Below, piece after piece: positions 5,516-15,442 of a stretch of 64,000 bases of DNA; within the stretch, counting starts at the first letter, position 1, and each line of letters opens with the position of its first letter. The translations under genes were made by a program, and so were the position numbers. Source of the stretch: Arcticibacter pallidicorallinus (GTDB taxonomy: Bacteria > Bacteroidota > Bacteroidia > Sphingobacteriales > Sphingobacteriaceae). The stretch covers positions 310,001 through 374,000 of the forward strand of contig NZ_PVTH01000001.1 in NCBI RefSeq assembly GCF_003002875.1, written 5' to 3'. A model generated the notes under the pieces. The model saw only the letters and a program-made list of their open reading frames with translations, had not been told where the DNA came from and searched no databases.

Positions 5516-5561
5516 GTTTAATATCAAAACCCCCTGTTTTGGTATTAAACTGACATTTTTT
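5516..5561 (+). terminator. Rho-independent terminator after ugd
   Basis: A 15-bp stem (left arm 5516-5530, right arm 5536-5550, one G-T pair) with a CCCCT loop, followed by TGACATTTTTT. It begins 13 nt after the ugd stop codon. Confidence 0.8.
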
Positions 5562-5619
5562 GAATAATTTTGTTGCGTTATTCATAATTTGGTTGTATAT
5601 TCGATCAAAATTTACCAGT

Positions 5620-5826
5620 ATGAGCGCAATATCAGGTCTTAACACAAGTCAAAAAACAGGAATCAGGCACTCTAGTGCTCCTCTTCACACTTGCCCTAAA
5701 TGCTCGTCTTATACGGATGTTAGGGTGGAGAATCCTAAAGTTATCGACCGGTACTTTTTCTGGTTATCCTTAAAAAGGTACCACTGCACAGATTGTCAGC
5801 ATCAGTTTTATATCTCCGCTAAATAA
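5620..5826 (+). CDS. Small zinc-ribbon protein, unknown function
   Basis: 68 residues from the ATG at 5620. An upstream in-frame start at 5560 would lie inside the ugd terminator hairpin tail, so it is rejected. The protein has two Cys pairs, CPKC and CTDC, 31-34 residues apart, the layout of a small zinc ribbon. Between them is a YFFWLSLKRYHC stretch. Similar short zinc-ribbon proteins are common in Bacteroidota, but no function is known to me. A terminator hairpin starts within its last codons. It lies between ugd and the BLUF gene and may be a separate unit. Confidence 0.7.
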   Translation: MSAISGLNTSQKTGIRHSSAPLHTCPKCSSYTDVRVENPKVIDRYFFWLSLKRYHCTDCQHQFYISAK

Positions 5827-5843
5827 CCTTAGCGGTTTTTTTT
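5816..5843 (+). terminator. Rho-independent terminator overlapping a stop codon
   Basis: Stem CCGCTA / TAGCGG with an 8-9 nt loop, followed by eight T residues. The stop codon of the zinc-ribbon gene (5824-5826) lies in the loop. It separates this small gene from the BLUF gene. Confidence 0.85.
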
Positions 5844-5878: not shown

Positions 5879-6277
5879 ATGTTGTATTATTTGATCTATT
5901 GCAGCGTTGCTTCGGAACTGATGGCTGAAGAGGACCTGAGGGTCTTGCTGAAGCAAGCCCGTGCTCGTAACCGCGAGCTGGTCATTACAGGGATGCTGGT
6001 GTACGTGGAGGGAGGATATGGAATGCGGAGACAGGGACGTTTTATGCAGGTGCTGGAAGGTTCCAGGTTTCTGGTGGAGACGCTGTTTGAGAAGATCAGA
6101 AACGACAATCGTCATCATGAGGTTGTGGTGCTGGAGGAAGGGGCTATTCATAAACGCAGTTTTAAAACATGGGAGATGGGCTTCGAAAGAACGGAGCAGT
6201 TTCCGCCTGCTGATGCCTCTTTTTCTTTCCTGAAAAGCTTCTATGATGAGCGTCAGGATAGAGACGTTTCCGCCTGA
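5879..6277 (+). CDS. BLUF-domain blue-light receptor
   Basis: A 132-residue protein that is essentially a single BLUF (blue light using FAD) domain. The flavin-network residues are present: Tyr7 in LIYCS, Asn31 in ARNRELVITGML, Gln57 in FMQVLEG, and Trp98/Met100 in WEMGF, aligning with AppA Tyr21, Asn45, Gln63, Trp104 and Met106. There is a small insertion before the FMQ strand (VEGGYGMRRQGR). A short C-terminal helical tail takes the place of an output domain, so it must signal through a partner. It starts the signalling cluster and lies 62 bp before rsbR, which suggests it feeds light input to the stressosome-like proteins. That link is inference from position. Confidence 0.93.
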   Translation: MLYYLIYCSVASELMAEEDLRVLLKQARARNRELVITGMLVYVEGGYGMRRQGRFMQVLEGSRFLVETLFEKIRNDNRHHEVVVLEEGAIHKRSFKTWEMGFERTEQFPPADASFSFLKSFYDERQDRDVSA

Positions 6278-6285
6278 AAATAATA

Positions 6286-6317
6286 TTTCTCATTGTTGAA
6301 TAGGTTGAGTACCTTTC
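6286..6317 (+). promoter_or_regulatory. Possible Bacteroidota-type promoter before rsbR
   Basis: TTTC, 20 nt, then TACCTTTC resembles the TTTG-N19/20-TAnnTTTG promoter of Bacteroidota, with the final G replaced in both boxes. It lies in the 62-bp gap between the BLUF gene and rsbR. The match is imperfect. Confidence 0.25.
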
Positions 6318-6339
6318 CGCGATAATTGGGATTCACTCT

Positions 6340-7212
6340 ATGTCATTTAATACACACAAATTGCTAGAATCAAAGAAGAAGGCCATCCTGGAACAATGGA
6401 TGAAAAATCAATTGGCCGACGATAGTCTGCGTGAGGATCTTATCTCCAATGAGGAGCTGCGCAGCCAGTCAGAAGAGCTGATTTCTGCCTTGGTGGGTAA
6501 CCTGTCGATGGCTGACTTAACTGATCTGGACTCAGACGAATGGAGTCCCGTCATTGAGATTTTAGGCGGCATTTCTATCACCCGCGCACGTCAGGGTTTT
6601 ACCCCTCGTGAAACGGGTAATTTCGTTTTTACTTTAAAAGAGGCTTTGCTGACTGTTCTGCAGGCGGAGATTTCTGACAACCCGCAGCTGTTGTTTGAAG
6701 AGAGCATGAAGATTAACCGCCTGATGGATAGTCTGAGCGTGGTGACGTTTGAGACTTTCATTAAAGGCCGTGAAGAGGTGATCCTCCGCCAGACGGATGA
6801 GATCGCTGATATTTCTACTCCGGTTATCCGGGTTTGGGACGGGATACTGGCTTTGCCGATCATCGGTACGCTGGACAGCGCCCGCACGCAGATCGTGATG
6901 GAAAACCTGCTGCAGGAAATTGTGGAAACGGGATCCAGTATCGCTATCCTGGATATTTCGGGTGTGCCGGCGGTGGATTCGCTGGTTGCTCAGCATCTGA
7001 TCAAGACGGTGAGTGCTACACGCCTGATGGGTGCGGAATGTATCATCAGCGGTATCCGTCCGGAGATCGCGCAAACGGTGGTTCATTTGGGTATCGACCT
7101 TTCGAACATCATTACCAAGGCTTCTCTGGCTAGTGCGCTGGCCTATGCTTTCAAGAGCATGCGTTTAGAGGTGAGGAAAGCGAATTCTGTGCAGAAGTCT
7201 AATACTTTTTAA
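6340..7212 (+). CDS. rsbR: RsbR-like stressosome sensor scaffold (STAS)
   Basis: 290 residues. Residues 1-150 form a helical RsbRD-type N-terminal sensor domain (HKLLESKKKAILEQWMKNQ at its start). Residues about 160-275 are a STAS domain with ILDISGVPAVDSLVAQHLI and ISGIRPEIAQTVVHLGIDL. In Bacillus RsbRA the RsbT kinase phosphorylates Thr171 and Thr205; the matching positions here appear to be Ser214 (VDS) and Ser237 (ISGIRPE). By family knowledge RsbR and RsbS form the stressosome core that holds RsbT until stress. It is followed 9 bp later by rsbS. No sensory cofactor motif is visible in the N-terminal domain, so the neighbouring BLUF protein may supply input. Confidence 0.93.
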   Translation: MSFNTHKLLESKKKAILEQWMKNQLADDSLREDLISNEELRSQSEELISALVGNLSMADLTDLDSDEWSPVIEILGGISITRARQGFTPRETGNFVFTLKEALLTVLQAEISDNPQLLFEESMKINRLMDSLSVVTFETFIKGREEVILRQTDEIADISTPVIRVWDGILALPIIGTLDSARTQIVMENLLQEIVETGSSIAILDISGVPAVDSLVAQHLIKTVSATRLMGAECIISGIRPEIAQTVVHLGIDLSNIITKASLASALAYAFKSMRLEVRKANSVQKSNTF

Positions 7213-7221
7213 AACACGGCT

Positions 7222-7632
7222 ATGGATAAAATTCCTATTCTGCGGATGGGAGCCTTTCTACTGGTTACGATCCAGGTGGACCTGTATGATCGTCTGGCAT
7301 TGAATCTGGAATCGGATCTGATCCAGATGGTGGATAAGACGAGGGCGAAAGGTGTACTGATTGATATTTCTGCGGTTTCTATAGTGGATTCATTTATGGG
7401 CCGCATCATCGGCAATATTGCCAGCATGTCCAGAATCATGGATGCGCAGACGGTTGTGGTGGGGATGCAGCCTGCTGTGGCGATCACGCTCATTGAGCTG
7501 GGTTTGCCGCTGAAGGGTGTGCATACTGCACTGAATGTGGAAAAGGGTATGGACCTGCTTAAATCAATGATCGATTTGGAAGAAGAAGACGAAGATCAAG
7601 ACTTAACTGAGGATGATCTTATCGCTGAGTAA
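7222..7632 (+). CDS. rsbS: RsbS-like stressosome scaffold (STAS)
   Basis: 136 residues: a single STAS domain opening KIPILRMGAFLLVTIQ, as in RsbS, with the conserved phosphorylation site Ser57 in VSIVDSFMGRII and the MQPAVAITLIELGLPLKGV helix. The acidic tail (EEEDEDQDLTEDD) extends beyond the usual RsbS length of about 120 residues. RsbS with RsbR would form the stressosome core and bind RsbT. The 3' end overlaps rsbT by 20 nt, so the two are translationally coupled. Confidence 0.94.
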   Translation: MDKIPILRMGAFLLVTIQVDLYDRLALNLESDLIQMVDKTRAKGVLIDISAVSIVDSFMGRIIGNIASMSRIMDAQTVVVGMQPAVAITLIELGLPLKGVHTALNVEKGMDLLKSMIDLEEEDEDQDLTEDDLIAE

Positions 7633-8026
7633 AGATACGATTGAGGTTGTTAAGGAGCAGGATGTGGTTTTTACGAAAAACCGCGTGAAGGAGGTCGCTG
7701 TAAGGATCAAAATGGGCCTCGTAAACCAGACACGATTAATCACGGCAGCGAGTGAATTGCTACGTAACATGATGCGCTATGCGAATGGCGGTAAATGTAC
7801 GATAGAAGTGGTGTCGAGCGGCCGTACGAATGGGATCCGCCTGACATTTACCGATAAGGGGCCGGGTATACCGGATATTGCTAAGGCGATGGAGGACGGC
7901 TTTTCTACGGGTAAAAGCTTAGGGCTCGGACTGCCGGGCACGAAGCGCCTGGTGAATGAGTTCGACATCAGGAGTAATGTGGGAGAGGGCACTACAGTGA
8001 CCATAATCAAATGGGCTAATGGTTGA
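7613..8026 (+). CDS. rsbT: RsbT-like serine/threonine switch kinase
   Basis: 137 residues of the GHKL/HATPase_c fold. Asn52 lies in AASELLRNMMRYA (N box), Asp81 in DKGPGIPD (G1) and the ATP-lid glycines in SLGLGLPGTKRL (residues 102-113), so it should bind and use ATP. RsbT phosphorylates RsbR and RsbS in the stressosome and is then released to act on a downstream partner (RsbU in Bacillus). No RsbU-like gene is here; the next genes carry related ATPase domains and could be the partners. The start ATG lies inside rsbS, and the end overlaps the next gene by 8 nt. Confidence 0.94.
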   Translation: MILSLSKDTIEVVKEQDVVFTKNRVKEVAVRIKMGLVNQTRLITAASELLRNMMRYANGGKCTIEVVSSGRTNGIRLTFTDKGPGIPDIAKAMEDGFSTGKSLGLGLPGTKRLVNEFDIRSNVGEGTTVTIIKWANG

Positions 8027-9029
8027 TGCAACGCATATTAGTTTTATAGCGAATGACAGGAGCTACTTTTCTCTGATCAAAAAGGAGATACACCGGGCAG
8101 CCGGGGAGGCAGGGTTTAGCGAGTTACGGATTAACATGCTCGACCTGATCGTAGCGGAAATGACTTCCAATCTTTTTAAATACAGCGACGACGGGGAGAT
8201 CCTGATGGGGATTTTCCATAACGGTGGTTCGCCTTATATCGAGCTGATCAGTATTGATAACGGCCCGGGGATGGTTAATCCTACGCGGATGATGCAGGAT
8301 GGTATATCAACCGGCAATACGCTGGGTCATGGGCTGGGCAGCATCAAACGTCTTTCGGATACCTTTGAGCTGTACTCGCAGATCGGATGGGGTACTATCG
8401 TGCTGAGCAGGGTCTACAACGATCCGAAGCAGGCTAAACTTCCTGTGAAAATGCTGATGCGCCCGATAGTGGTCTCCAAGCCGGGGGAAACGGTGAGCGG
8501 CGACGGCTTCGTGTTTAAGAAAACGGAAAGATATGTGAAGATGATGCTGGCGGATGGCCTGGGACATGGTCCGGAAGCGAACAAGGCGGTGAACGAGGCG
8601 GCGGCGGCCTTTAGGGTCTTCCCTGATTACAGTCCGTCGGCAACCATCCGCTTCATCCATCAGGCGATAAAGAAGACCAGGGGAGCGGTGATGAATATCA
8701 CGGCCTTCGACTTCAGGACGAGAACCTGGAGCTGCACGGGAGTGGGTAATATCGCCGCCCGGATGATCGGTCCGGCCAGCTTCAAGAACCACATGTCTTA
8801 TAATGGTATCGTGGGGCATAATATTCCGACGACGATGAGTGACCAGGAGTATCCTGCGGAACTATATAATCAGATCATGATGTGTTCTGACGGCTTCAAA
8901 ACCCGTATTGATCTGGCACGTTATCCGCAAATGTATAAATATGATCAGACGGTGCTGGCGGCGGCCCTGTATAAGGACCATGCCCGTAAGACGGATGATA
9001 TGTCGGTGGTAATGGCGAAAATAAAATAG
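8019..9029 (+). CDS. HATPase-SpoIIE phosphatase fusion (RsbX-like)
   Basis: 336 residues with two domains. Residues 1-135 are an RsbW/RsbT-type ATPase: Asn51 in EMTSNLFKYSDDG, Asp80 in DNGPGM and lid GHGLGSIKRL. Residues about 145-336 are a PPM/SpoIIE phosphatase like RsbX: Asp162 in SGDGFV, Asp179 in DGLGHGPEA, GVGNIAARM, Asp291 in CSDGF and TDDMSVVM at the end hold the metal-binding acids. RsbX dephosphorylates RsbR and RsbS to reset the stressosome; Bacillus RsbX has no ATPase domain, so this fusion could combine kinase-like and phosphatase roles. It overlaps rsbT by 8 nt and is followed by the histidine kinase after one base. Confidence 0.9.
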   Translation: MVDATHISFIANDRSYFSLIKKEIHRAAGEAGFSELRINMLDLIVAEMTSNLFKYSDDGEILMGIFHNGGSPYIELISIDNGPGMVNPTRMMQDGISTGNTLGHGLGSIKRLSDTFELYSQIGWGTIVLSRVYNDPKQAKLPVKMLMRPIVVSKPGETVSGDGFVFKKTERYVKMMLADGLGHGPEANKAVNEAAAAFRVFPDYSPSATIRFIHQAIKKTRGAVMNITAFDFRTRTWSCTGVGNIAARMIGPASFKNHMSYNGIVGHNIPTTMSDQEYPAELYNQIMMCSDGFKTRIDLARYPQMYKYDQTVLAAALYKDHARKTDDMSVVMAKIK

Positions 9030-9030
9030 G

Positions 9031-10236
9031 ATGATAACACTTGTCACGATTTCTCTTGAAAATGAAATGGACCTGGTGCTGGCACACAAGAAATCCATTG
9101 CGGTTGCAGGAAAGCTGGGTCTGACGATTGCGACGCAGACGACCTTTGGTACGGCTGTTTCGGAGATTTCGCGTACGGTGATAGAGCATACGGATACCGG
9201 GATCCTGCGCATTAGTCTGGAGGTCAATGGCGGGCGCTATTCGCTCAAGGCGACCATTACCTGTGATAGCGGCGTGGGCTTCAATAGTTACGACACGGGC
9301 TTTTATTATGCTCAGAAGCTGGTTCCGGAGTTTAGCCTGACGGAACAGCCGAACAATAAACTGATCCTAATCAGAATGGGCTTGCCGCGTTCGCTGAAGT
9401 TGGATCCGCTGAAAACCGCGATGCTGGTGAAGTATTTTCAGGAGTCGGAACCTTTGAATGCCTACGAGGAGATCAAGGTGAGGAATACCACGCTGAACCG
9501 GATTACGGAGGAGCAGGAGGAGGAACTGCGTCGCTCGAAGATCATCGACGAGAAGAAGACGGAGTTCATCAGTATCGCCAGCCATGAGATCAAGACGCCT
9601 ATAACCATTATTAAAGCGTACACGCAGATAGCGAAGTCTATGAGCAGCAAGGAAAACACGGAGCTGCAGACGATACTCGCGAAGGTTGATTTTCAGACAT
9701 CCAAGCTGCTTAGCCTGGTGCAGCAGCTGCTCGACGTGTCGAAGCTGGAGAACGGAAGCCTGCAGTACACTCCGGAGATTGTGGAAATAAACGCTTTTAT
9801 CAGCGATGCGGTGCAGGTTATTCAGCATATTCTCCCGGATAACAAGGTGTCTGTGGAGACTTGTGAAGACAGTTGGGTGAGTGTGGACAGGCTGCGGTTG
9901 GACCAGGTTATTTCGAATATACTGACCAATGCGGCCAAGTATTCGCCTGGAGGATCGCTGATCGAAATAAAATGTGTACGGAGGGTGGATGATTTCCTGC
10001 AGGTTTCGGTAAGGGATCGGGGCATCGGGATGTCGGAGGAGACCATTAAGTCTGTTTTTGATAAATTTTACCGGGACAAGGATGTGCTGCACTCGCACTC
10101 GGGTCTGGGTATGGGGCTTTATGTCGCCTCAAAAATTGTTGCCAGCCACGGTGGCAGGATCTGGGTGGAGAGTGTTGAGGGAACGGGCTCGGTCTTTCAC
10201 TTTACCTTGCCTTGTGTGTCCGGGGATCCGGAATAG
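9031..10236 (+). CDS. Histidine kinase with RsbT-like N-terminal domain
   Basis: 401 residues, cytoplasmic, no membrane segment. Residues 1-135 resemble an RsbT/RsbW ATPase fold, but the N-box position reads AVSEISRTVIEHT, with Thr where Asn is expected, and the glycine lid is lost, so this copy is probably non-catalytic. A helical linker (about 150-180, with EEQEEELRRSK) leads to a normal HisKA domain (SHEIKTPITII, the phosphorylated His) and HATPase_c (NILTNAAKYSP, DRGIGM, FDKFYR, GLGMGLYVA). It follows the phosphatase fusion by one base. The degenerate domain suggests it docks to stressosome parts, so RsbT release could control this kinase. Its response regulator is not in the window. Confidence 0.9.
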   Translation: MITLVTISLENEMDLVLAHKKSIAVAGKLGLTIATQTTFGTAVSEISRTVIEHTDTGILRISLEVNGGRYSLKATITCDSGVGFNSYDTGFYYAQKLVPEFSLTEQPNNKLILIRMGLPRSLKLDPLKTAMLVKYFQESEPLNAYEEIKVRNTTLNRITEEQEEELRRSKIIDEKKTEFISIASHEIKTPITIIKAYTQIAKSMSSKENTELQTILAKVDFQTSKLLSLVQQLLDVSKLENGSLQYTPEIVEINAFISDAVQVIQHILPDNKVSVETCEDSWVSVDRLRLDQVISNILTNAAKYSPGGSLIEIKCVRRVDDFLQVSVRDRGIGMSEETIKSVFDKFYRDKDVLHSHSGLGMGLYVASKIVASHGGRIWVESVEGTGSVFHFTLPCVSGDPE

Positions 10237-10295
10237 TTTACCCAAACATTGGCGTAGCTTTCTGAAAATGCGTAACTTCGTGGGCGCAAACACAT

Positions 10296-12014
10296 ATGCT
10301 CGATCTCAATTCCATCAGACCATTCCTGGAAGCTTCTCCTAATGCCTATTTGATCATGTGGGCTGACAAGCCCCATTATACAATGGTGGAGGCGAGTACT
10401 GCCTTTTATGAGATAGCAGGAAGCAGTGCTTCCCAAATAATTGGAAACAGTGTATTCGACGGGTTTAGTGCCCAGGGGGGTGAACACAACGAGAAAGGAG
10501 TCAGGGTGCTGAAGGACTGCCTGGATCGCGCCTTGCTGTTGAAAAAGAAGCAGCGGTGTAGTTTGCAACGGTATGACCTTCCGACGGATCAAGGTTATGA
10601 AGTGCGTTTCTGGACCTATGAAATATCACCGCTTATTAACGATGAAGGTGAGGTATGTTATCTGCTGCAGCATGTTGTTGACGTAACGGGAAGTGTGCTT
10701 TCGGAGGCTGAAGAGAAATCTTTTGACCCGCTGATCGATGCTTATCCGGACGCTGTGGGGTCGCTGGATCTAAAGGGCAACTTTTTAAGTGCTAACCTGG
10801 CTATGTTGAATTTGACGGAATGTTCGAGGGAGGACCTGCTCAGACGGTCGTTTGTTCCGTTTATCGCACCTGAAGATTTCGGTCGCGCTTTTTCAGGCTT
10901 TCAGAAAGCGCTTCTGGGTGAGATGGCGAAATTTGAAACGAACTTCATCAGTACTCAGGGTAGCCGATATGTAGCGAGTTGCACCTGTATGCCGATCAAG
11001 ATCAATCAGGATATCATTGGTGTGCACCTCATTGCCCGAAATATCACTAACCTAAGAAACGCGGAAAGGCAGCTTGAACACTACCATCAGCGGATGGCCA
11101 GTATTATCGAAAGTATACGGGATGGTTTTTTTGCAATGGACCGTAACGCTGTTGTGGAATACTGGAACCGGGAAGCGGAACACCTTTTGAAGATGAGCAG
11201 TGAGGAGGTGATCGGTCAAAGCCTGTGGCATGTTCTCCCGAAGGGTCTTTCCACTAAATTTTACGCCAGCCAGCAGCGTGCCGTTAACGAGCGGATCTCC
11301 ATTCGTTATGAGGAGTTTTCTGCGGTGTCGCAGGTATGGCTGGAGGTTTCGATCTTTCCGTCGCCGAATGGATTGTCTGTTTATTTCAAGGATATTACGG
11401 AGCGTATGGCGGCTGAACGGGCTCTGGAAGAGAGTGAAAAGCGGTTTAAAGCCCTCGTGCAGAACGGATCGGATGTTATATCGATAATCGACCGGAAGGG
11501 AACCTATTTATACATGAGTCCTTCTTCCATGGCTACGCTGGGGGTGGGGCCTGAATTCTGGGTGGGACGCAACGTGATGGAGTTTGTTCATCCGGACGAC
11601 GCAGAAAGGATCAGGGGGATGCTGCATGCTTCTTATACCAACAAACAGCTGCATATTCAACCCTTCCGTTTTAAACGGAACGGAGAGGAGTATCGCTGGA
11701 TTGAAACCGTTATTACGGATATGAGCGATGACCCTGCGGTTGGAGGTCTGGTAAGCAATACGCAGGATGTGACTGAAAGGGTAGAGTATATTCAGGCCAT
11801 CGAAGACCAGAATAAGCGGCTTAGAGAGATCGCTTTTATACAATCTCATATTGTAAGGGCTCCTTTGATGAGAATAAAGGGTCTGGCGGACCTGATCTGC
11901 AATTACGAAGAAGATGCCGGACAGGTGAAAATGATGCTGGGACTCATGAATGAAGCGGTAGAGGAGCTGGATAACGTTATACAGGACATTGTTGGTAAAA
12001 CGGATAATCTTTAG
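10296..12014 (+). CDS. Four-PAS protein ending in an isolated DHp helix pair
   Basis: 572 residues, no membrane segments. Four PAS-like domains can be seen: about 1-130, 145-255 (YPDAVGSLDLKGNFL), 265-375 (IRDGFFAMDRNAVVEYWNRE) and 380-500 (GSDVISIIDRKGTYLYMSPS, then a PAC segment ending VSNTQDVTERV). The C-terminus is a DHp-like helical hairpin with SHIVRAPLMRIKGL, the histidine-kinase H box, but the protein stops there with no HATPase domain. Such truncated PAS-DHp proteins are found in Bacteroidota; the His could be phosphorylated by another kinase, or the helices may serve for dimerisation. It lies 59 bp after one histidine kinase and before another. Confidence 0.85.
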   Translation: MLDLNSIRPFLEASPNAYLIMWADKPHYTMVEASTAFYEIAGSSASQIIGNSVFDGFSAQGGEHNEKGVRVLKDCLDRALLLKKKQRCSLQRYDLPTDQGYEVRFWTYEISPLINDEGEVCYLLQHVVDVTGSVLSEAEEKSFDPLIDAYPDAVGSLDLKGNFLSANLAMLNLTECSREDLLRRSFVPFIAPEDFGRAFSGFQKALLGEMAKFETNFISTQGSRYVASCTCMPIKINQDIIGVHLIARNITNLRNAERQLEHYHQRMASIIESIRDGFFAMDRNAVVEYWNREAEHLLKMSSEEVIGQSLWHVLPKGLSTKFYASQQRAVNERISIRYEEFSAVSQVWLEVSIFPSPNGLSVYFKDITERMAAERALEESEKRFKALVQNGSDVISIIDRKGTYLYMSPSSMATLGVGPEFWVGRNVMEFVHPDDAERIRGMLHASYTNKQLHIQPFRFKRNGEEYRWIETVITDMSDDPAVGGLVSNTQDVTERVEYIQAIEDQNKRLREIAFIQSHIVRAPLMRIKGLADLICNYEEDAGQVKMMLGLMNEAVEELDNVIQDIVGKTDNL

Positions 12015-12024
12015 TGTGGGCAAG

Positions 12025-12043
12025 CTTCACATAATGTGTGAAG
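12025..12043. repeat. Inverted repeat between two sensor genes
   Basis: CTTCACA-TAATG-TGTGAAG, a perfect 7-bp inverted repeat. No T-run follows, so it is not a normal terminator; it may be an operator or an RNA hairpin before the last kinase gene. Confidence 0.45.
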
Positions 12044-12122
12044 TACTGCGCAAATAATGTGTATTTTATTTCGGCTGGGGTATTTGTATCTTGGTGTCCC
12101 TACTTCTAATAGTAAATGGGTT

Positions 12123-13184
12123 ATGGGCAATGATTTTGACCTCGAACATTATTTTGAGCTATCGCCGGATGGTATATGCATTGTAGGACACGATGGCATT
12201 TGCATCAGGGTAAATAAGACTTTCGCCCAGGATCTGGGGTATTCGGTTGATGAACTGATCGGCAAAGCTACCCGGGATTTATTGTATCCGGATGACCGGC
12301 CGCGAACGCAGCTTGCTTTCGAGAAAATGAAGCATAACCTGACGCTGACGAATTTTGAGAACCGGTATCTGACGAAAACGGGTCAGATCCGCTGGTTCTC
12401 CTGGACGGCTATCCCCATCGAGAGCGCGCAGGTGTATTTAGGGATTGCCAAAGACATTTCCCACCAGCGGAAGCTGGATGATGACCGGAATCAGCTGCTG
12501 ACCAAAATGACGAAGAGTGTAGATAACCTTAAGCAGCTGACCTATGCCACTTCTCATGACCTGCGTGCACCCGTTAATAATCTCCTTGCCGTTTTTAGCT
12601 TATTGGACGTTTCGAAAATTCCCGACCCGGAGACCCGTAAGTTTATTGATATGCTCAAACTCGCTACTGATAACCTGAGGAGTACCCTGGATACGTACGT
12701 GGAGCTGCTGGGTAAGAAGGATGTAATGAATATTTCTCAGGAGGAGCTGGATTTGCGTGAGTGCTTTGAGGTTGTGACGGGCTCGGTAGCTTCTCTTATA
12801 GAACATACGCATGCCGAGATTCGCACGGATTTCAGCGCTTTTAGCCGCGTTCCTTTCAACAGGTTGTATATGGAAAGTATTTTCCTGAATCTCCTGACCA
12901 ATTCTATCAAATATGCCAAGAACGGCTCAGTCCCCAGGATATTCGTGCAGACCCGGTTGGGAGAGGGGGTAAAGCAGCTGGTCTTCTCGGATGCGGGCCA
13001 GGGTTTCGACCTGAACCAGGTTAAGGACAGGGTCTTTGGTCTTCATCAGAAGTTTCATAATCATCACGATAGTAAAGGGATAGGACTGTATCTGGTTCAT
13101 CATCATGTGACTTCTATGGGCGGGCGCATCCAGCTGGAGAGTAAGCCGGGGGAAGGGGCGACTTTTATTATTTCGTTTGAGTGA
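12123..13184 (+). CDS. PAS-domain histidine kinase
   Basis: 353 residues from the ATG at 12123, which directly precedes the PAS domain (FDLEHYFELSPDGICIV); an ATG at 12057 would add 22 residues without family character. Residues about 5-120 are PAS plus PAC (ENRYLTKTGQIRWFSW). HisKA has the H box ATSHDLRAPVNNL, and HATPase_c has NLLTNSIKYA, DAGQGFDL and GIGLYLVHHH, so it looks catalytically intact. No membrane segment is present. It is the last gene of the cluster, and its 3' end overlaps the convergent gmhB by 17 bp. No response regulator is adjacent. Confidence 0.88.
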   Translation: MGNDFDLEHYFELSPDGICIVGHDGICIRVNKTFAQDLGYSVDELIGKATRDLLYPDDRPRTQLAFEKMKHNLTLTNFENRYLTKTGQIRWFSWTAIPIESAQVYLGIAKDISHQRKLDDDRNQLLTKMTKSVDNLKQLTYATSHDLRAPVNNLLAVFSLLDVSKIPDPETRKFIDMLKLATDNLRSTLDTYVELLGKKDVMNISQEELDLRECFEVVTGSVASLIEHTHAEIRTDFSAFSRVPFNRLYMESIFLNLLTNSIKYAKNGSVPRIFVQTRLGEGVKQLVFSDAGQGFDLNQVKDRVFGLHQKFHNHHDSKGIGLYLVHHHVTSMGGRIQLESKPGEGATFIISFE

Positions 13185-13689
13185 GGGACTTAAAAGTGCG
13201 GAGCAGATCGGCGGTCAAAGGAATTGTCTGGTCAGCAAAAATGCTATCCTTCCCGGAAATAAAAACGGTGCTCATACTGAGTTCTTTTGCCGGGATGAGG
13301 TCTGTTTCGGAATCTCCTATCATCCATGATTTCTGGAAATTAATGACGTAATGCTCTGCAGCAGCAAGGAACAAGCCTTTCTTTGGCTTGCGGCAGCAGC
13401 AATTGTCTTCATCGAGATGGGGACAGACGAAGAATTTACTGATGTAGTTACCCGTTTTGTTATCGATGGCCTGGTTGATAACCTGGATATCAGCCAAGCT
13501 TATCATTCCACGGCCTATACAGCGTTGATTGGTGACGACGATAATTCGCCGGAATGTCTGATGGGCCCATTTCAGAAATAACGGAATACCGGGTAATATT
13601 TCAATATCCTCTGGTGTCAGTACATATCCTCCGTCTATTTTCCGGTTCAGCACACCGTCACGGTCGAGAAACAGGGTGTCGTACATCAT
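13168..13689 (-). CDS. gmhB: D-glycero-D-manno-heptose 1,7-bisphosphate phosphatase
   Basis: 173 residues of the HAD IIIA family. Visible motifs: nucleophile DRDGVLN near the start, VTNQRCIGRG, the zinc-binding cluster CPHLDEDNCCCRKPKKG and MIGDSETDL. GmhB removes the C7 phosphate of heptose 1,7-bisphosphate to give heptose 1-phosphate for nucleotidyl transfer. It is the last gene of a tightly packed minus-strand operon and overlaps hddC by 4 nt. With hddA and hddC next to it, the GDP-D-glycero-alpha-D-manno-heptose route is the best fit. Its 3' end overlaps the convergent kinase gene by 17 bp. Confidence 0.9.
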   Translation of the reverse strand: MMYDTLFLDRDGVLNRKIDGGYVLTPEDIEILPGIPLFLKWAHQTFRRIIVVTNQRCIGRGMISLADIQVINQAIDNKTGNYISKFFVCPHLDEDNCCCRKPKKGLFLAAAEHYVINFQKSWMIGDSETDLIPAKELSMSTVFISGKDSIFADQTIPLTADLLRTFKSLTQTK

Positions 13690-14405
13690 GAAGGGATTTG
13701 GCTGTGAAGGAGTTCTTGTGCTTTAAGAAAATCCTGAGGTATCCCGATATCAATAAATATTCCCGGGTAGCTTTTGCCGAAGGCATTCAGATCCTGAGTT
13801 TTACCTTGAAACAGATCCTGCTCTATGGAAAATTTTTTGGGCATGGGATATCGTGCTAAAAGCGATTTTCGCATAAGGTATATGCCGCCGTTGATGGTGA
13901 TGCTGGTATCGCTGCTTTGGCCTTTCTCCGTAAATGACTGTATTTTGCTGTTGGACGAACATTGCACGCTGCCATAGCGCTGCGAGTCTGTGGTTTCTTT
14001 AAGAGCAAAAGCCAGATCAGCATGATGGGTTTCGGCGAAGTGGTCCAGATCGTCTAACGATATGTCGAACCAAGTGTCGCCGTTTACGATAAATGCTTTG
14101 TCGTCTTTAGTCTGGTTGAATGCCTGGTATATGGCTCCACCGGTTCCAAGCAGTTCCTCTTCTACGCTATAAACAACTTCGAGTCCATAGCGATTCTGCT
14201 CGAGGGCGAGATGTTGCTGGATGATTTCGCGTTTATGGCCTACAGCGAGTACGACTCTGTTGATGTTGTTTTTCGCCAGAAAGTACATAATATAATCAAG
14301 AAAGGGACGTCCTGCGACTTCGGCCATGGGTTTGGGCACGTCTTTAACGATGGATTGCAGGCGTGTCCCCAGTCCGCCGGCAAGGATGATGGCTTCTTCA
14401 GTCAT
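13686..14405 (-). CDS. hddC: Heptose 1-phosphate nucleotidyltransferase (HddC-like)
   Basis: 239 residues. It starts EEAIILAGGLGTRLQSIVKD with KPMAEVAGRPFL, the signature of sugar-phosphate nucleotidyltransferases; VNGDTWFD holds the metal-binding Asp. The size and GmhB/kinase neighbours match HddC, which makes GDP-D-glycero-alpha-D-manno-heptose from heptose 1-phosphate and GTP. It overlaps gmhB by 4 nt and follows hddA by 5 nt. Nucleotide preference (GTP or ADP/UDP forms) cannot be read from motifs alone. Confidence 0.85.
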   Translation of the reverse strand: MTEEAIILAGGLGTRLQSIVKDVPKPMAEVAGRPFLDYIMYFLAKNNINRVVLAVGHKREIIQQHLALEQNRYGLEVVYSVEEELLGTGGAIYQAFNQTKDDKAFIVNGDTWFDISLDDLDHFAETHHADLAFALKETTDSQRYGSVQCSSNSKIQSFTEKGQSSDTSITINGGIYLMRKSLLARYPMPKKFSIEQDLFQGKTQDLNAFGKSYPGIFIDIGIPQDFLKAQELLHSQIPS

Positions 14406-14410
14406 TTTGT

Positions 14411-15442
14411 TTATGCGTTTGTTTTCCAGGTGAGTACGCCTTTATCATAGAAACTGACGCGTTCTACGAGTCCGCCGTATTCTTTCAAAACGTTGGTGAT
14501 ATGGTAAACGTAACAGTTCTTTACGTAAAACATCATGTAGCCGCCACCACCGGCACCGGACATCTTCCCGCCGAGGGCACCGTTGTGGATAGCGCTTTCG
14601 TAGATCTCATCGATCATGGGGTTACTGATCTCATCGGCTGTTTCCTTTTTGGACTGCCAGCCATCGTTCAGCAGGTTGCCAATTTGATTCAGCTTTCCGC
14701 GCAGCAGGGCCTCTTTCATATTGTAGGCAAGGCTCTTGAGGGAGTGCATGCCATCTATGGATTTTGTTGAATGGTCTGACACGTTCTTAACCTGGGCGTC
14801 GATGATGCGGGAGGAGAGGCGTGAGGTGCCGGTATAGTACTGTATGAGGGAAAACTCCAGCTCATGGATGTATTCCTGCTTGATGCGCAGGGGGTTGACG
14901 ACCACGCGGTCTGCATAAAACTCCATGAAGTTAAAGCCGCCAAATGTTGCCGCATACTGGTCCTGCTTGCCGCCGGAGAGTCCCAGATCTTCGCGTTCGA
15001 TGCTGTAGGCTAGCTGGGCGAGATCGTACTCACCCAGGGGGAGCCCGAGCCACTCAGCGAAAGCCGCCACTATGGCGACTACCAGCGTAGAGGATGAACC
15101 GAGTCCTGACCCGGGAGGGGCATCAACATAGGTCTCCAATTGATAGAACATGGGTTTGCTGATATTAAACTCCCTGCGGATGCGGTTATGGATGCCCTGG
15201 ATCAGGCGAAGCTTGGAATCCTTCAGGTCAAATTCGTCGACATTATTAAAAACGTGATGCTCATTGATATCATGGCATTTGATGACGATCTGGGGTATGT
15301 CCAGAGGCATCAGGGTGGCATAAGCAAACTTGTTGATAGTGGCATTCAGAATGGCGCCACCGAACTTGTCGCTGTAAGGGCTTACGTCGGTGCCTCCTCC
15401 GGCGAGGCCTAGTCTTAGCGGTGCTCTGGAACGTATAATCAT
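14411..15442 (-). CDS. hddA: D-glycero-alpha-D-manno-heptose 7-phosphate kinase (HddA-like)
   Basis: 343 residues of the GHMP kinase family: RSRAPLRLGLAGGGTDV at the N-terminus, the ATP loop PPGSGLGSSSTLVVA and the C-terminal GGKMSGAGGGGYMMF. This pattern is typical of HddA and related L-fucose kinase-like enzymes. HddA adds phosphate at C1 of D-glycero-D-manno-heptose 7-phosphate in the GDP-heptose route. It overlaps the upstream glycosyltransferase gene by 4 nt. The isomerase GmhA that supplies its substrate is not in the window. Confidence 0.88.
   Translation of the reverse strand: MIIRSRAPLRLGLAGGGTDVSPYSDKFGGAILNATINKFAYATLMPLDIPQIVIKCHDINEHHVFNNVDEFDLKDSKLRLIQGIHNRIRREFNISKPMFYQLETYVDAPPGSGLGSSSTLVVAIVAAFAEWLGLPLGEYDLAQLAYSIEREDLGLSGGKQDQYAATFGGFNFMEFYADRVVVNPLRIKQEYIHELEFSLIQYYTGTSRLSSRIIDAQVKNVSDHSTKSIDGMHSLKSLAYNMKEALLRGKLNQIGNLLNDGWQSKKETADEISNPMIDEIYESAIHNGALGGKMSGAGGGGYMMFYVKNCYVYHITNVLKEYGGLVERVSFYDKGVLTWKTNA

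Follow-up and report, generated by a model that had tools for sequence, protein, structure and literature searches.

A stressosome module in Arcticibacter pallidicorallinus with a candidate output kinase that carries a degenerate RsbT domain

A 64,000-nucleotide stretch of the Arcticibacter pallidicorallinus genome (contig NZ_PVTH01000001.1, positions 310,001 to 374,000 of the forward strand; the whole stretch is called the window here) carries what is, by its sequence, a stressosome (RsbRST) module: a sensor and STAS protein, RsbR, and a STAS protein, RsbS, are encoded side by side, and the phosphorylation sites and the ATP site of the kinase RsbT are present. The module is followed by the gene of a histidine kinase, HK1, whose first 120 residues are, judging from profile comparison and predicted fold, a worn-down RsbT (pseudo-RsbT) of RsbT/RsbW-type kinship that has lost its ATP site. 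These observations suggest that a histidine kinase bearing a degenerate switch protein replaces the usual sigma-factor partners, and thus a way in which such modules pass on their signal. We propose, with moderate confidence, that the module is a sigma-free stressosome which would control HK1 by partner switching through the pseudo-RsbT domain. The genes in question, in window coordinates, are:

6340-7212, + strand: RsbR, RsbRD_N sensor domain and STAS domain (Pfam RsbRD_N 3e-28, STAS 7e-15)
7222-7632, + strand: RsbS, STAS scaffold with a phosphorylatable Ser (Pfam STAS 9e-8)
7613-8026, + strand: RsbT, switch kinase with N-box and G boxes intact (Pfam HATPase_c 7e-15)
8019-9029, + strand: RsbTX, RsbT-like ATPase domain fused to an RsbX-like PP2C phosphatase (HATPase_c_2 4e-6 and SpoIIE 2e-4, both below cut-off)
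9031-10236, + strand: HK1, pseudo-RsbT domain, linker, HisKA and HATPase_c (Pfam HisKA and HATPase_c)
9031-9390, + strand: putative pseudo-RsbT domain of HK1, residues 1-120 (profile comparison, alignment and predicted fold)

The operon and the N-terminal domain of HK1

Of 399 Sphingobacteriaceae genomes, 70 have RsbRD_N, at 73 places in total, and at all 72 places other than the window RsbR, RsbS, RsbT, RsbTX and HK1 follow one another in the same order and on the same strand, with HK1 as the fifth gene each time. One of these copies, in the two-module genome G017, has its RsbT spread over two frames (L009:8367-8799, - strand), by decay or by sequencing error. A profile of the first 150 residues of HK1 has 73 strong matches, spread over 70 of the 399 genomes; by visual comparison of the lists, these are the 70 genomes listed for RsbRD_N. 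All weaker matches (n = 35) lie 1.37-1.66 kb from HK1, which is the spacing of RsbT. This profile was taken from alignment A2, made of the window and 59 of 80 named loci (L076-L155, of 5.3-20.4 kb each, the best 80 of 312 coding stretches found with HK1), while alignment A1 holds the window and 31 of the 72 fetched loci. The operon is complete in 76 of the 80 named loci (RsbR is split in L153), and two of the other four lie at contig ends. Because the named loci partly overlap the unnamed loci L003-L075, counts pooled over the two sets are not independent.

The motif residues expected of a stressosome are retained throughout. RsbR aligns with the solved RsbR over most of its length and RsbS with the solved RsbS around the phosphorylated serine. 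The Thr of the RsbR GT(I/L)D motif and Ser57 of RsbS are kept in 73/73, and the second RsbR site is a Ser, a conservative change, in 73/73; by alignment, these positions are the equivalents of RsbR Thr171, RsbS Ser59 and RsbR Thr205, respectively. The E, N, D and G motif residues of RsbT are intact in 72/72 (the split RsbT of L009 excluded), and the RsbT of the window matches the SpoIIAB kinase. As for RsbTX, its N-terminal half matches RsbT at 99.4% in profile comparison and its C-terminal half matches the SpoIIE-family chain 3zt9 (6e-16) and the Bacillus RsbX 3w40 (5e-8), so that the weak SpoIIE match reflects a real RsbX-like phosphatase.

The preliminary description of this DNA had read the cluster as a stressosome without a sigma factor, and the genome (4.1 Mb in 23 contigs) bears this out: RsbU_N (PF08673) has no match in the whole genome, HK1 included, and none of the six genome-wide matches to SigB-type (SigBFG) sigma factors exceeds the model cut-off (best 113 vs 234 bits). 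A histidine kinase as the output, also put forward there, is probable, the conserved fifth gene HK1 being the one that fits.

In profile comparison, the N-terminal domain of HK1 (HK1N) matches RsbT with 93.6% probability (E 2e-7). The values drop to 0.7% with the ATPase part of HK1 itself and to 0.2% with each of RsbS, the phosphatase part and the N-terminal part of RsbR. An HK1N profile (E < 0.01) likewise matches 151 of 160 RsbT open reading frames and 0 of 161 of the RsbX type, with double counting of some loci. All 72 RsbT have the N-box Asn and all 73 HK1N lack it, and the ATP-lid region is gone in both the alignment and the predicted model. The predicted structure (predicted local distance difference test, pLDDT, 92.9) resembles SpoIIAB (Foldseek 9.8e-6) and RsbW (Z 14.2, root-mean-square deviation 1.9 over 109 residues), whereas no histidine kinase ATPase domain exceeds Z 7.7. 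Conservation is highest in strand 1 and helices 1-2 (mean 0.743 vs 0.455-0.584 elsewhere in the domain). Family libraries hold no clear model for HK1N: among 60 members, Pfam gives HATPase_c_2 in three (best 5e-4) and NCBIfam gives RsbA in 25 (best 1.4e-4), the window's own copy matches at E 0.06 or worse, and a sequence profile search of the PDB with HK1N returned nothing of note. HK1N is probably a pseudo-ATPase domain turned signalling adaptor, and HK1 itself is apparently soluble, as judged by eye.

Signal transfer through HK1

For signal transfer from sigma-free Gram-negative stressosomes HK1, a conserved kinase with an RsbT-derived domain and found in the same genomes as RsbR, is a concrete partner candidate. 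We hypothesize that RsbR and RsbS would form the sensing scaffold, for which RsbT would be the switch kinase and RsbTX the phosphatase that resets it. Upon stress, RsbT would phosphorylate RsbR and RsbS and depart from the scaffold; the pseudo-RsbT domain of HK1 could then be bound either by the RsbT so released or by the STAS surface that it has vacated, as an RsbT/pseudo-RsbT heterodimer or with HK1 occupying RsbT's place on the scaffold. This contact would alter the activity of HK1 through the linker, and phosphate might pass from HK1 to a receiver protein, encoded by the next gene in some relatives. The BLUF protein encoded ahead of RsbR in the window would be a strain-level addition. In 13 of the 72 loci, HK1 is followed immediately by a co-directional gene for a single-domain receiver, and, counting both strands, 26 loci have some receiver match no farther than 3 kb away. 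Twelve of the 13 adjacent receivers went into the receiver profile, and the ten of these 12 that were tested are all Response_reg proteins. There is perhaps an even chance that RsbT/pseudo-RsbT partner switching constitutes a third mode of stressosome output, besides those through RsbU and through RsbU_N kinases, in the Sphingobacteriaceae and in some Chitinophagaceae and Flavobacteriaceae, with RsbT, RsbTX and pseudo-RsbT competing for the same surfaces.

A number of observations weigh against control of HK1 by partner switching: (i), gene order does not separate a physical switch from co-regulation; (ii), HK1N reaches only 3.1% profile probability with the RsbT-like half of RsbTX, while RsbT matches the ordinary ATPase part of HK1 at 96.8%, so matches at the level of the superfamily are detectable by profile comparison; (iii), SiaB (Z 11.0) and LvrC (Z 10.0) rank after the anti-sigma factors in the structural comparison, between RsbW and the kinases, and some Chitinophagaceae copies of HK1N retain the N-box Asn; (iv), the genome scan with the HK1N profile scored at most nine candidates per genome and lists its non-matching genomes in part, and two of the 80 named loci (L149 and L154) have HK1N kinases with no rsbRST nearby; (v), direct same-strand receivers are limited to the 13 of 72 loci, and the receiver profile found none in the 64-kb window, where two further genes, HK2 and HK3, occupy the position; and (vi), RsbT could instead have a partner in one of two further SpoIIE phosphatases encoded elsewhere in the genome. 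Mirror-tree correlations (0.70-0.92) are high for every pair and single out no partner.

Alternatively, the pseudo-RsbT domain might be a docking decoy that binds RsbS or RsbR in the place of RsbT; HK1 would be sequestered on the stressosome until stress releases it, and would make no contact with RsbT. We regard this as possible, though somewhat unlikely: the RsbT-family fold and the conservation of strand 1 and helices 1-2 speak for it, but HK1N has lost the ATP-lid side, the side at which SpoIIAB receives its STAS substrates. Less likely again, HK1 would merely be co-transcribed, as a two-component kinase in its own right with an N-terminal domain for some other input, and the stressosome would act on a partner elsewhere. 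The kinases of L149 and L154, the window's want of a receiver by profile and the two additional SpoIIE phosphatases all fit such an arrangement; the shared list of 70 genomes for RsbRD_N and HK1N does not, nor does the kinship of HK1N to RsbT, the very protein that stressosomes release. The two kinases that stand apart from rsbRST are encoded at L149:5546-6760 and L154:9587-11254, and a receiver-like gene (named by eye) comes after the latter.

The BLUF gene and the surroundings of the operon

Partner switching onto HK1, as preferred here, involves the five genes described above; in the window they are flanked by further features:

5816-5835, + strand: terminator-like hairpin and then a T run, between a zinc-ribbon-like open reading frame and BLUF (consensus match only)
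5879-6277, + strand: BLUF, stand-alone protein of 132 amino acids (Pfam PF04940, 9.1e-28)
10296-12014, + strand: HK2, PAS repeats and a terminal HisKA-like segment, with no ATPase domain (HisKA match sub-threshold)
12057-13184, + strand: HK3, PAS-HisKA-HATPase_c kinase (PAS and HATPase_c matches; HisKA sub-threshold)

The eight genes from BLUF to HK3 are co-directional on the + strand, as the preliminary description had it, with successive intergenic distances of 62, 9, -20, -8, 1, 59 and 42 bases. Its further proposal that BLUF supplies the light input, by binding RsbR or RsbS in dependence on blue light, is quite improbable, given that BLUF profile searches found no BLUF gene aligned with the operon in any of the 72 other Sphingobacteriaceae loci, that blastp with three BLUF proteins found none within the flank in 79 of the 80 named loci, and that the protein has no STAS domain. 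The idea that BLUF belongs to the conserved operon was rejected on the two locus counts, and a BLUF gene that is not conserved beside the cluster in relatives is an outcome which the preliminary description had itself named as a refutation. A light-sensing stressosome would be recognised by a photoreceptor that carries a STAS domain or is conserved with the module, and the BLUF protein of the window is neither.

The exception among the named loci is Olivibacter jilunii (matched by G088, with an identical BLUF), where BLUF lies ~0.8 kb beyond HK1; it was rejected as a second operon case because an open reading frame of 192 amino acids on the opposite strand intervenes. Elsewhere, the BLUF genes of RsbR genomes are mostly on other contigs or tens of kb away; the nearest after that of G088, in G324, is ~14 kb from the operon, on the other strand and with an internal stop. 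The two other genomes of the window's genus that have the module gave no BLUF match, and 16 genomes outside the family have BLUF in three cases, none near RsbRD_N. The source genome itself has a second BLUF gene on another contig (G000:C2:349898-350194, 45% identical to that of the window), with no Rsb match within the surrounding 18 kb.

What speaks for a light input is that BLUF lies on the strand of RsbR at a distance of 62 bases, and that in alignment to Tll0078 the Tyr, Asn, Gln, Trp and Met of its flavin site are retained. BLUF is also rarely expected near a module by chance (~0.02 cases within 500 bp of 73 modules, a rough estimate from approximate, hand-counted BLUF genes and a mean genome size), and it is commoner in genomes with RsbR (40/70 vs 91/329; Fisher 4.8e-6, genus kinship ignored). 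Given that a hairpin precedes BLUF and that the motifs tried gave no promoter in the BLUF-RsbR gap, BLUF and RsbR may be co-transcribed. A light input is possible, argued for chiefly by gene position; BLUF beside the module looks like a chance or strain-specific neighbour.

Two further ideas about this region were rejected. Base composition gives no sign of a foreign origin of BLUF (GC 0.496 vs 0.472-0.512 for RsbR to HK1). A shared Bacteroidota-type promoter before RsbR (TTTG-N17-23-TAnnTTTG) matches 1 of 73 upstream regions vs 0.68 in shuffles and is absent upstream of RsbR in the window, where the sole match (5538-5572) is within chance.

Of the three sensor proteins first named, HK3 is a PAS kinase; HK1 has no PAS sensor and HK2 is an incomplete kinase, since its sequence stops after the HisKA-like segment. 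HK2 may be a phosphorylation target of an adjacent protein, for instance HK3 or HK1. Close counterparts of HK2 and HK3 are missing from most of the 72 loci: the nearest directly downstream protein to HK2 (378 amino acids) is 31% identical, in L066, and the nearest to HK3 (258 amino acids, 44% identical) lies ~1.8 kb downstream of HK1 in L051. Some operons have other histidine kinases in their vicinity.

The cluster is bordered upstream by a small zinc-ribbon-like open reading frame (5620-5826, + strand) with two CxxC pairs and a Pfam match below cut-off, which lies between a sugar dehydrogenase gene and BLUF. Facing the cluster from the other side are genes named by eye as D-glycero-D-manno-heptose phosphatase, nucleotidyltransferase and kinase-like (13168-15442, - strand). 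Rfam and tRNA scans of the 64-kb window gave no matches.

Relation to known stressosome systems

Across the phylum, RsbRD_N matches occur in 85 of 395 genomes, many of them in short, weak proteins, and 14 places were fetched, picked mostly for RsbR-sized frames. Five of these (L156-L158, L160 and L162) have the RsbR-RsbS-RsbT-RsbTX-HK1 operon, five (L163-L167) a classic RsbR-RsbS-RsbT-RsbX arrangement with a stand-alone RsbX, and three (L161, L168 and L169) no module. The remaining one, L159, comes from another taxonomic class, and its gene run includes a histidine kinase joined to an intact RsbT domain, a plausible intermediate. In all five classic loci, which belong to other Bacteroidota families, the next gene encodes a PAS kinase with RsbU_N (four matches exceed the Pfam cut-off and one falls just short, with 25.0 vs 25.5 bits), followed by a NarL-like regulator, its family named by eye. 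RsbU_N and pseudo-RsbT may therefore be alternative docking domains, each standing at the same gene position. One classic locus also encodes a stand-alone pseudo-RsbT-like protein of 137 amino acids (L167:1399-1812, + strand; 2e-5), with no kinase attached, ~4 kb from the PAS kinase.

Several phyla, Bacteroidetes among them, are described as having sigma-free RSTX modules with downstream kinases, some of which carry RsbU_N and most of which do not (PMC9237108). With two-component outputs of stressosomes thus in print, the cluster is a little-described system, as first supposed, only in part. Among the open-access papers listed by literature searches, some of the lists being capped, and judged by title and abstract start, none concerned an RsbT-derived domain on a histidine kinase or BLUF with rsb genes; the Pane-Farre reviews of 2005 and 2017, which may describe Bacteroidetes loci, lie outside that scope.

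As in the Bacillus subtilis stressosome, the module has an RsbX-like phosphatase, and its RsbR, RsbS and RsbT carry the motif residues expected of them. In Bacillus, RsbT freed from the stressosome binds RsbU (PMC12143880), and the pathway runs through RsbU, RsbV, RsbW and sigma B; here, in contrast, neither RsbU_N nor SigB is found over cut-off, RsbX is fused to an RsbT-like domain and the output gene is that of a histidine kinase. A blue-light flavoprotein associated with a stressosome recalls the LOV-STAS proteins YtvA and RsbL, but the protein here is BLUF, not LOV, and has no STAS fusion. Closer in layout are the Gram-negative RSTX modules such as that of Vibrio vulnificus, likewise sigma-free and followed by signalling kinases; according to PMC9237108, they differ in a globin-type RsbR and a stand-alone RsbX, and an interaction of RsbT with VvD1 could not be shown there, while the present module offers pseudo-RsbT as a docking candidate. 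Finally, the RsbU_N histidine kinases near stressosome genes resemble HK1 in having a partner-binding N-terminal domain; RsbU_N, however, is the partner of RsbT (PMC12143880), whereas HK1N appears to be a relative of RsbT itself.

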